A stretch of 64,000 nucleotides of DNA from Thioalkalivibrio thiocyanodenitrificans ARhD 1. GTDB lineage: Bacteria > Pseudomonadota > Gammaproteobacteria > Ectothiorhodospirales > Ectothiorhodospiraceae. Shown here in pieces: positions 47,663-54,088 of the stretch. The notes under the pieces were generated by a model that did no database searches, was not told where the DNA came from, and saw nothing but the letters and a program-made list of their open reading frames with translations. The stretch spans positions 879,583-943,582 of the forward strand of contig NZ_KB900536.1 of the NCBI RefSeq assembly GCF_000378965.1, written 5' to 3'. The position numbers and the translations under genes were made by a program. Position 1 is the first letter of the stretch. Each line of letters opens with the position of its first letter.

Positions 47663-48974
47663 GGGACTGTAATTAAATCTGTGTAACTGCTTGTTTCTGT
47701 TTATGGTAGCTGAAACGGGAGGCAAGCAGATGCAAGAACAAGAGAAGAAGGAGTTGGCGGCGCGCCTGGCCAAGGGGATCAAGACGGAGAAGGATCTCAG
47801 TGATTTCAGCGCTGAGCTGATGAAGCTGGTGGTGGAAACCGCGCTGGGCGCGGAGATGGAGGCGCACCTGGGCTATGCCAAGCACGACCCGGCTGGGCAC
47901 CACAGCGGCAACAGTCGCAACGGATTCAGCCGCAAGACGCTCAAGGGCAGTCACGGGGAGGTCGAGATTGCCACGCCCCGGGATCGCAACGGCAGCTTCG
48001 AGCCGCGGCTGGTGGGCAAGGGCCAGACGCGGCTGACACAGTTTGATGATCAGATCCTGGCGCTCTATGCCCGGGGCATGAGCACGCGCGACATTGTCTC
48101 GGCCTTTGAGCAGATGTACGGGGCGCAAGTGTCTGCGAACCTGGTCTCGCGGGTCACCGAGGCGGTGATCGAGCAGGTTGAGGCCTGGCAGAACCGGGTG
48201 CTCGACGAGGTCTATCCCATTGTTTTTCTGGATTGTGTGGTGCTCAAGGTGCGCCAGGACCGGCGCATGGTGAATAAATCGATGTACCTGGCGCTGGGCA
48301 TCAACACCGAGGGCGAGAAGGAGTTGCTGGGGCTGTGGCTGGCCGAAACCGAGGGGGCGAAGTTCTGGCTCTCGGTGCTCACCGAGCTTCAGAACCGGGG
48401 GGTCAAGGAGATCTTCATCGCCTGCGTGGACGGGCTGAGCGGCTTCCCCGATGCCATCGAGGCGGCCTTCCCCCATGCGCGGGTGCAGCTGTGCATGGTG
48501 CACATGGTGAGAAACAGCGTGCGCTACGTCTCCTGGAAGGAGCGCAAGGCGGTGTGCCGGGACCTGCGCCAGATCTACCACAGCGCGAGCGCCGAGCAGG
48601 CCGAGGCGCAGCTTGCTGCCTTTGAGGCCGTCTGGGGCGAGCGCTATCCCAGCATTGGGCCGATCTGGCGCCGGCACTGGGCACAGGTGATCCCGCTGTT
48701 TGATTATCCGCCCGAGATCCGCAAGGTGACCTACACCACCAACGCCATCGAATCGCTCAACAGCGTCATCCGCAAGGCCACCAAGAACCGGCGTGTCTTC
48801 CCCAGCGATGCCTCGGCGATGAAGGTGGTATTCTTGGCCGTGCAGAGCGCCTCAAAGCGCTGGACCCGGCCCATCCAGAACTGGAAGGCCGCCATGCATC
48901 GATTCGAAATCGAACATGGCGAGCGAATCCGGGCCACTCAGGGATAGGCAGTTACACAAAAAGAATTACAGACT
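47663..48974 (+). mobile_element. IS256-family insertion sequence, copy 2 (1312 bp)
   Basis: Same ends as copy 1. Flanked by the 9-bp direct repeat CGAGCCGCA at 47654-47662 and 48975-48983. Removing one repeat and the element restores AAAGGGCGAGCC-GCA-GGCTCGCCCTTT, a perfect 12-bp-arm palindrome that looks like an intrinsic terminator. The element is therefore inserted through a hairpin loop. Confidence 0.95.
47730..48947 (+). CDS. IS256-family transposase, copy 2
   Basis: 405 residues from ATG 47730, same start choice as copy 1 (the frame also allows 47703 and TTG 47691). Complete DDE motifs as in copy 1. Differs by a few substitutions only, concentrated in the first 100 residues. Confidence 0.95.
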   Translation: MQEQEKKELAARLAKGIKTEKDLSDFSAELMKLVVETALGAEMEAHLGYAKHDPAGHHSGNSRNGFSRKTLKGSHGEVEIATPRDRNGSFEPRLVGKGQTRLTQFDDQILALYARGMSTRDIVSAFEQMYGAQVSANLVSRVTEAVIEQVEAWQNRVLDEVYPIVFLDCVVLKVRQDRRMVNKSMYLALGINTEGEKELLGLWLAETEGAKFWLSVLTELQNRGVKEIFIACVDGLSGFPDAIEAAFPHARVQLCMVHMVRNSVRYVSWKERKAVCRDLRQIYHSASAEQAEAQLAAFEAVWGERYPSIGPIWRRHWAQVIPLFDYPPEIRKVTYTTNAIESLNSVIRKATKNRRVFPSDASAMKVVFLAVQSASKRWTRPIQNWKAAMHRFEIEHGERIRATQG

Positions 48975-53065: not shown

Positions 53066-53695
53066 GGGGGCGACCTGGCTTCGACGTGGGTCACGAAACC
53101 CGAGGTGCATGCCGAGGAGACAGCTTCCCTCGTAAAACCAGCTGTAACGCTATAGTTGCCAACGACGACAACTACGCTCTGGCTGCGTAAAACCAGCTGG
53201 ACCTTCGACTGGACTTGCTTGTGGGTCCTACTTGAAGGTCATCGCACACAAGCTCGCGGAGCGGACTCGCCCGGGTCTTAACCGTTAAACCTGATCGGGA
53301 TCGCGTCTGGGTATCCTGTCCGTCGGAGACTCAGTCGTAAAATTAAACGACGGCTCTAAGCATGTAGTATCCGAGGATGTAGGTCTCGCGGACGCGGGTT
53401 CGATTAACACAATGGTCGCCTCTACCCGTAAGGGTAGAGTGAAAACGGGGCTCACATCGGTGGACCCTACGGCAGGGCAACCTGCTACGGCAACACCGAG
53501 GGGTAGGAAGAGGGCCAACCTCAGGCCTGCCCTGTAGAGACTCATAGACCGGCTGAGTTCATGGGAACGGAGCCGGCACTAGGATTCGCGGAAACATTGC
53601 ACCGCGGATAACACGCCCCGCATCCTGGAAACAGGATGAAGGTATAGTCCAGCCCATATCGAAAGATATGGATCACTGTCCCGCCGCCTCCACCA
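53066..53695 (+). ncRNA. ssrA: tmRNA (ssrA), interrupted by a group I intron in the T-loop
   Basis: The 5' end GGGGGCG (53066-53072) pairs with CGCCTCC near the 3' end to form the acceptor stem; CCA is encoded at 53693-53695. The tag frame at 53158-53190 encodes ANDDNYALAA and a stop, close to the E. coli ANDENYALAA tag. The D-loop-like and AAACC-type regions, the pseudoknot area and GGACGCGGGTTCGAT follow. Exon 1 is 53066-53404 and exon 2 is 53679-53695. Joined, they give the T-arm GCGGG-TTCGATT-CCCGC with a normal 7-base loop. Mature RNA would be about 356 nt. tmRNA rescues stalled ribosomes and tags truncated proteins. Confidence 0.95.
53405..53678 (+). other. Group I self-splicing intron within ssrA (274 nt)
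   Basis: Boundaries follow group I rules: exon ends in U (53404) and intron ends in G (53678). P1 can be drawn as 53401-53406 with 53413-53418, with the required U-G pair U404-G415 at the splice site. P2 is a 7-bp stem TCTACCC/GGGTAGA. A GACT/AGTC P7-like pairing (GTAGAGACTC and GGTATAGTCC) flanks a GAAA-capped hairpin CATCCTG-GAAA-CAGGATG, and a second GAAA hairpin CATATC-GAAA-GATATG (P9-like) precedes the 3' splice site. The subgroup is unassigned. No endonuclease frame lies inside it. Self-splicing is predicted from these pairings, not proven. Confidence 0.88.
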
Positions 53696-53704
53696 ACCCT
53701 GAAA

Positions 53705-53734
53705 ACCCTGGCCGGAAACGGCCAGGGTTTTTTT
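53705..53734 (+). terminator. Intrinsic terminator of ssrA
   Basis: ACCCTGGCCG-GAAA-CGGCCAGGGT followed by a run of seven T. It starts 9 bp after the encoded CCA. Confidence 0.92.
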
Positions 53735-53782
53735 GTGGCGCTATACTCGGTCCCACAGGACATGGGCCAAAGGGTTACACGG

Positions 53783-54088
53783 ATGAACCTTGAAGACCTG
53801 GCCGCGATACACGCCGCCTACATCGCAGGACTGATCGACGGGGAAGGCACCATCACCCTCACCCGAAAGCATCGAAACGAAAACCGTCAGCTCGCGGTAA
53901 CCATCAGCAGCACGGAGCGAAATCTTCTGGAATTCGTCAAGGAAACCCTCGGCGTCGGAAAGATTACCCGGATTCGAAACCGCGGTGCTCAGCATCAAGC
54001 CGATTGACGATGGGTGATCATCTGCCTGACCGCGGATAGTCGGCGGGATATGCAGCCGCTGCTGGCGGGACGGCTGTTGGGGAGGTGA
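53783..54088 (+). pseudogene. LAGLIDADG homing endonuclease remnant, broken by an in-frame TGA
   Basis: Starts MNLEDLAAIHAAYIAGLIDGEGTITLTRKHRNEN; AGLIDGEG is the LAGLIDADG helix with the catalytic acid in place. The frame reads ISSTERNLLEFVKETLGVGKITRIRNRGAQHQAD and then meets TGA at 54005-54007. Beyond it the same frame continues without a shift for 26 codons (RWVIICLTADSRRDMQPLLAGRLLGR) to TGA at 54086-54088, resembling the usual end of such single-motif enzymes. It therefore looks like a recently inactivated gene. It lies outside the intron and beyond the ssrA terminator, 88 bp after the tmRNA 3' end. It may have helped mobilise the intron. Confidence 0.8.

Follow-up and report, generated by a model that had tools for sequence, protein, structure and literature searches.

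The window analysed here, a stretch of 64,000 nt from Thioalkalivibrio thiocyanodenitrificans ARhD 1, carries a tmRNA gene (ssrA) interrupted within its T-loop and followed by the remains of a LAGLIDADG homing endonuclease gene (HEG). The neighbourhood of interest reaches approximately position 54017, beyond the end of the tmRNA, and contains the following features:

53066..53404, + strand: tmRNA (ssrA) 5' exon, ending in the T-loop at UUCGAU (RF00023, 172.4 bits; empty sites of relatives)
53158..53190, + strand: tag frame ANDDNYALAA and stop codon (translation)
53405..53678, + strand: group I intron of 274 nt; additional stems lie between P7 and P3' (RF00028, 33.1 bits; covariation over 40 introns; model R1, 89.3 bits for the 3' end)
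53679..53695, + strand: tmRNA 3' exon, UCCCGCCGCCUCCACCA, with the last T-loop base, T-stem, acceptor and CCA (direct reading; identical to the empty site of relatives)
53702..53735, + strand: intrinsic terminator, stem ACCCTGGCCG/CGGCCAGGGT with a GAAA loop and a T run (direct reading)
53783..54007, + strand: N-terminal part of a LAGLIDADG HEG, shortened by an internal deletion and a frameshift; ATG at 53783, the listed ORF starting at GTG 53735 (PF14528, 1.7e-7; 77% identity to the intact homologue of genome G004 over the aligned part; profile match with an internal TGA)
53973..54017, + strand: C-terminal remnant of the HEG, out of frame, FETAVLSIKPIDDG (by eye, against the C-terminus in genome G001)

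A long, open ORF for a Mutator-family transposase also lies in the window (47691-48947), approximately 4 kb from the tmRNA.

The Rfam tmRNA model RF00023 matched positions 53066-53427 (172.4 bits, E = 1.8e-68), with an alignment that is wrong at its 3' end because the real end of the tmRNA is beyond the insert. By direct reading, the acceptor stem pairs GGGGGCG with CGCCUCC and includes a G3-U70 pair, and the 5' half of the T-arm (GCGGG-UUCGAU) stops at 53404, to be resumed after the 274-nt insert by UCCCGC-CGCCUCC-ACCA at 53679-53695. The acceptor and T-arm, tag frame, RF00023 match, G3-U70 pair and CCA together identify the gene as a tmRNA, and the acceptor stem, the tag ANDDNYALAA, the encoded CCA and the terminator, all claimed in a first-pass annotation of this DNA, were read directly in place. 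ARAGORN called no tmRNA gene in the window, and a promoter and terminator pattern scan listed neither element, though the tmRNA terminator is plain by eye. Relatives supplied 30 uninterrupted tmRNA loci: 25 are identical to the spliced T-arm and acceptor across 31 nt around the site (uninterrupted T-arm sequence, GGACGCGGGTTCGATTCCCGCCGCC), three have one acceptor-base difference, and two have the loop TTCAATT. These empty sites support an insertion between the sixth and seventh T-loop bases (UUCGAU|U), and joining U53404 to U53679, as the first-pass annotation had proposed, rebuilds the T-loop, the joined exons matching the uninterrupted gene of relatives.

The group I model RF00028 gave a full-length match at 53395-53671, with a score of 33.1 bits (Rfam curated cut-off, 50) and an E-value of 7e-7 in a 381-nt search; an Rfam search at the curated thresholds did not detect the intron. 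In the genome-wide search with RF00028, the window intron was the single match at E 0.001 (E = 1.3e-6). A search with a group I covariance model had been set beforehand as the test on which the intron claim could fail, and the claim came through it, though with a weak score (33.1 bits). Both splice sites, U53404|U53405 and G53678|U53679, obey the rules for such introns: the U at -1 pairs with a G in P1, and the intron ends in G. The fold of the window intron is 5.5 standard deviations more stable than that of 100 shuffled sequences.

Covariation was assessed across 40 aligned introns, comprising that of the window and 39 of the 42 found at the HEG loci described below; the longer introns of L071, L093 and L097 were left out. 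In this alignment, 91.1% of the cells are paired and 47 of 73 pairs have changed on both sides, and none of 500 shuffled controls reached the values of the intron alignment on any of five measures. Structures slid along the alignment were 33-45% paired, a comparison favouring the named structure, which was drawn by hand from the window sequence, whereas the MAFFT alignment was made without it. P3 is paired in 100% of the introns, with double changes at three of its six pairs; P7 is invariant, and all 40 introns have the U-G pair at the 5' splice site. We take the extra stems to be P7.1 and P7.2 of the group IA type. By eye, two structural subtypes can be told apart among the tmRNA introns, differing in the P2 and P6 regions. 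RF00023, RF00028, the empty sites and covariation agree in identifying the 274-nt insert as a group I intron at T-loop position 7, as had been claimed, the splicing itself being predicted from sequence.

Such introns have been reported yet are uncommon, in line with the first-pass annotation: 883 of 97,179 unique tmRNA sequences bear an intron, across 21 phyla, most of them at T-loop position 7 (PMC11915505, which cites PMC99078 as the first report of a tmRNA intron; PMC13153191, by comparison, concerns an intron of 23S rRNA). The window intron shares with the published position-7 introns the gene, the insertion point, the -1U and terminal-G rules and a short length (PMC11915505). It differs in the placement of its HEG: those counted in that study lie within the intron, in P7.1 or after P9, and occur in 36 of 883 introns (4.1%), whereas here the HEG stands outside, behind the gene. 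A count of intron-internal HEGs would therefore score such loci as lacking one. The intron at T-loop position 7 is already known; for the adjoining external HEG, searches of an open-access library found no published description of a LAGLIDADG HEG directly behind an intron-split tmRNA.

The HEG of the window, which does not appear in the first-pass annotation and changes what the intron likely belongs to, is a broken copy of the I-CreI/I-MsoI type just 3' of the tmRNA terminator, with its middle lost; the promoter scan found no promoter for it. In the window's family, a HEG or its remains stands behind all seven intron-bearing tmRNAs among the 31 genomes examined. Five genomes (G002, G003, G004, G005 and G008) carry open HEGs of approximately 145 aa in the same place, and G001, whose intron differs from that of the window by one base and whose tmRNA 5' part falls off its contig, has a separate HEG deletion that takes out the motif. 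No HEG was found behind any of the 24 intronless tmRNAs of the family (23 searched over at least 700 bp downstream, one over 187 bp). A pair of small ORFs, by eye resembling an antitoxin and a RelE-type toxin, lies behind the HEG in G001 (L061 791-1392) and G002 (L062 5980-6593).

The HEG proteins score above the cut-offs of PF14528 and PF00961 and have a predicted I-CreI-like fold, in keeping with a LAGLIDADG endonuclease, the window's own copy being broken. An AlphaFold model (pLDDT 90.9) has I-CreI, I-MsoI and I-CvuI as its nearest Foldseek matches, the profile match to I-MsoI reaches E = 1.9e-11, and D22, the motif Asp, and G25 are invariant in 38 aligned homologues; NCBIfam gave no family for three of the HEG proteins. 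The three nucleases named are intron-encoded, in organelle rRNA genes. The tmRNA-linked HEG resembles these homodimers in its single motif, its length of approximately 145 aa, its predicted fold and its conserved motif Asp, but is only 16-20% identical to them in the best matches and is free-standing beside a tmRNA. The protein is probably a homodimer like I-CreI, and the T-arm DNA, as an inverted repeat, would suit such a nuclease. In the four intact pairs tried, dN/dS was 0.18, 0.05, 0.22 and 0.15, and those copies therefore look selected. The LAGLIDADG protein could in principle be a maturase that aids the folding or splicing of the intron, as some of its relatives do; the gene co-occurs with the intron, and its more remote matches include a maturase (2ab5) and I-AniI. 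We regard this function as highly improbable, given that introns persist despite a broken gene in the window and in G001, G449, G303, G174 and G427, and that in the Halieaceae the gene is open without an intron (L085-L087, dN/dS 0.05 at a dS of 1.5, near saturation).

To map the arrangement more widely, a HEG profile was scanned against one genome per species, which yielded 52 relatives, three of them from the window's family. At 42 of these, the tmRNA carries an intron and the matched part of the HEG, encoded on the same strand, begins 52-183 bp downstream of the tmRNA 3' end, outside the intron, so that a free-standing HEG (a remnant in the window) adjoins an intron without one of its own. 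The 42 loci include Thioalkalivibrio, Methylophaga, Thiocapsa and Parahaliea, as well as metagenome bins labelled Nitrospira, Betaproteobacteria and Anaerolineae, labels that may be wrong. At the other loci, the HEG stands behind an intronless tmRNA in L085 and L087 (Seongchinamella), bin L090 and L106 (a Nealsonbacteria bin); it is convergent with an intronless tmRNA 49 bp away in L108 (a Nomurabacteria bin) and approximately 10 kb from one in L112 (a Parcubacteria bin). The HEG of L080 (Pseudohalioglobus) begins its contig, which probably adjoins the contig end L200, where a tmRNA lies, across an intervening insertion sequence. The HEGs of L116, L118 and L119 (32-38% identity) are on contigs other than those of the tmRNA matches, or not close to them. 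No HEG match was found on plasmids at E 1e-5. Phage records gave 40 matches, all below 60% identity (the 20 listed, 29-40%), and the best match among the best 80 of 283 from viral contigs had 42% identity.

Four of the 42 loci, with a HEG that is short or contains a stop, were dropped before distances were compared. In the other 38, HEG distances correlated with those of the tmRNA body at r = 0.54 and with those of the intron at r = 0.32, and the partial Mantel correlation between HEG and intron given the tmRNA was 0.22, a value reached in none of 5000 permutations. The HEG tracks the tmRNA body more than the intron, and the intron and HEG therefore need not always move together. Co-phylogeny of the two was set aside as proof of joint transfer, its support being weak (partial Mantel 0.22). 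Intron distances fit the tmRNA body less well than HEG distances do.

A survey of 369 genomes of the window's class, partly overlapping the 52 relatives, detected the HEG profile at E 1e-10 in 18 genomes, in all of them beside a tmRNA; these include G081, in which the gene crosses a contig end, and G311, in which the contig begins within the intron. An earlier junction pattern had matched 75 of the 369 genomes, mostly not introns where read (12 of 30 loci read, plus G277 and G420). The final intron count was made with R1, an 88-position model of the intron 3' end for which 31 of the 40 aligned introns were used; it matched 22 genomes at 69-98 bits, which were counted, and matches of 27 bits, the next best, or less were set aside. 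Intron and HEG occurred together in 16 genomes, the HEG alone in two, the intron alone in six and neither in 345 (Fisher p = 2.7e-21, with genomes treated as independent and relatedness ignored). Two of the six, G277 (38 aa, E = 8e-7) and G420 (36 aa, E = 0.004), have no profile match but short apparent HEG remains, which brings the HEG or its apparent remains to 18 of the 22 intron carriers; no HEG was found within 1.4-1.5 kb downstream of the intron-bearing tmRNA in G200, G209, G301 and G078. Full-length open HEGs number nine, every one behind an intron-bearing tmRNA. The two HEGs without an intron (G060 and G198) are degraded and lie beside uninterrupted tmRNAs with the loop TTCGATT; that of G060 is partial and by eye frameshifted, and that of G198 contains a TAG and was matched only to position 98 of 138. 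In G060 (L309), the degraded HEG is present in two copies 8.4 kb apart, the first behind the intronless tmRNA. The HEG of G174 (L307) is in two parts with approximately 2.5 kb between them, as though an insertion had separated them.

These distributions could arise if the intron were an ordinary tmRNA group I intron and the HEG a neighbour using the same conserved hotspot, with no part in the spread of the intron. The four of 22 class-survey carriers, together with two Halieaceae (L241 and L244), that have an intron and no detected HEG would be consistent with such independence, as would HEG distances that track the host tmRNA more than the intron. Against it stand the strength of the association (16, 2, 6 and 345 genomes), an order and spacing that are fixed across bins of several phyla, and the restriction of full-length HEGs in the class survey to sites behind intron-bearing tmRNAs. 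We consider mere neighbourhood unlikely.

We think it probable, if well short of certain, that the intron and the adjoining HEG form one unit of collaborative homing at the tmRNA, with cutting and splicing predicted and the target site inferred from position. In this cycle, the nuclease would cut uninterrupted tmRNA genes in the T-arm, and repair from a chromosome carrying the unit would copy the intron, the short 3' exon, the terminator and the HEG together. The intron would destroy the cut site and so protect the carrier, self-splicing would keep the intron-bearing tmRNA working, and after fixation the nuclease would decay, a state seen in the window. Some Halieaceae seem to rely on an altered T-loop, rather than the intron, for protection. 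Collaborative (trans) homing in phages, as described for cyanophage psbA, T3/T7-like phages and the ICP1 terminase, likewise pairs an intron that lacks a HEG with a free-standing endonuclease gene adjoining the host gene, the intron site being the presumed cut site (PMC3984707, PMC10448857). Our case differs from these accounts in its setting on bacterial chromosomes, its RNA gene host, its LAGLIDADG family and its recurrent arrangement, and in that cutting is predicted only. Genomic islands at tmRNA genes share with the unit the 3' half of the gene as a target and, at some loci, extra 3' ends downstream, but the intron-HEG unit has approximately 1 kb and one protein gene (PMC11915505).

The HEG may have been intron-internal at first, on the P9 side, and moved outside when the 17-nt 3' exon was duplicated, which would make the unit a displaced ordinary mobile intron. 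Four HEGs lie after P9, near the start of the 3' exon, among 844 introns (PMC11915505), which would offer a starting point; none of our 42 loci has a HEG inside the intron and no intermediate was seen, and we hold this history very unlikely. It concerns origin and is compatible with collaborative homing as the present-day mechanism. Running counter to homing, the patescibacterial HEGs of L106, L108 and L112 are open near uninterrupted tmRNAs, two of which have the loop TTCGATT. Unless these nucleases have another specificity, they speak against the rule that a nuclease can stay intact only beside a protected site.

The Halieaceae offer a view of the HEG with and without the intron. Of 61 genomes drawn, 46 tmRNAs were readable through the T-arm, the fragments L246-L248 having been dropped for lack of a readable T-arm. 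The intron follows TTCGAT in seven, five of which have a HEG or part of one; in L241 and L244 none was found within 1.4-1.5 kb downstream. Another 36 lack the intron; no HEG was found behind them, and their loops read TTCAACT, TTCAATT or TTCAAGT (27 with at least 700 bp searchable downstream and nine with less; the contig of L226 ends at the gene). Position 57 is G in all seven intron carriers versus A in all 36 intronless tmRNAs without a detected HEG, a difference that the copying of exon bases would be expected to leave. The sister loci L245 (intron and HEG) and L217 (uninterrupted, with 234 bp searchable downstream) are joined with support of 100/99 in the Halieaceae tree, from which L226 (one of 47) was left out.

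Three of the 46 tmRNAs lack an intron and have an intact HEG behind them, in one case on what is probably the adjoining contig; bin L090 brings such loci to four, three with the loop TTCGAGA and one with TTCGAAA. Their HEGs form one clade (100/99) in a HEG tree that leaves out six of the 52 and has unsettled bootstrap, whereas their tmRNA bodies are scattered on the tmRNA-body tree. That of Seongchinamella unica L240 (= L085) is sister to L230 (96/84), which has a native loop and no HEG in 307 bp downstream; that of S. sediminis L235 is sister to L239 (100/94), where the loop is native and 1.5 kb contained no HEG; and that of Pseudohalioglobus L200 is in another clade, with the T-stem GCCGG versus GCGGG in the two near bodies compared. 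In a small sample, with a short RNA gene and several weak forks, this discordance points to a HEG that may have been transferred with the tmRNA 3' end and no intron. We tentatively suggest, with more doubt than confidence, that in some Halieaceae the nuclease spreads intronless by a "cut and recoded rescue", cutting the native TTCAACT or TTCAATT T-arm and installing its own cut-proof TTCGAGA or TTCGAAA loop along with the HEG. If true, the intron and the recoded T-loop would be two interchangeable shields for a single selfish nuclease lodged at an RNA gene.

Additional copies of the tmRNA 3' end behind HEGs were considered as marks of cutting, and were found at three distinct loci (two in one genus) plus one weak case versus three of 65 controls plus one weak case; they were dropped as evidence because the controls show about equal frequency. 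At L087 (5292-5990, S. sediminis), the tmRNA and the HEG are separated by an extra tmRNA 3'-end fragment with a terminator-like stretch, and there is an inverted T-arm-like stretch too, as if the site had been repaired more than once. At L240 (= L085; approximately 2612-2680, S. unica), an extra tmRNA 3' end of the native type (TTCAACT) with a terminator lies approximately 40 bp behind the HEG.

The first-pass annotation went too far in making tagging dependent on self-splicing, as the same genome carries a second, uninterrupted tmRNA (G000:C2:112992-113361; L059 7993-8362; 163.3 bits) with the tag ANDDSFDRALAA, which is 52% identical to the spliced chromosomal tmRNA over 353 columns. In this strain, tagging may therefore be possible without splicing. 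The contig C2 has 302 kb, and two stretches of it (L059 and L060, 35 kb in total) hold 23 and 13 tRNA genes of many isotypes; tRNA arrays have been described on giant plasmids in Mycobacterium (PMC12803027). A plasmid search with the second tmRNA gave one partial match, on a Thermus plasmid. The two C2 stretches have a GC content of 0.60 versus 0.66 in the window, and an IS605-type transposase, an AAA ATPase and helicase-associated proteins are encoded near their tRNA genes and tmRNA.

Counted as almost free of HEGs (4.1%), tmRNA introns have a spread over 21 phyla that is left unexplained (PMC11915505). A HEG just outside the gene could explain the spread of the proteobacterial and nitrospiral ones. 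A cycle in which invasion is followed by nuclease decay and then intron loss, as proposed here, becomes testable, because loci resembling each stage occur in one gene family. The external HEG would provide a case of chromosomal collaborative homing in named isolates such as those of Thioalkalivibrio, Thiocapsa and Methylophaga, where the accounts cited above concern phages.
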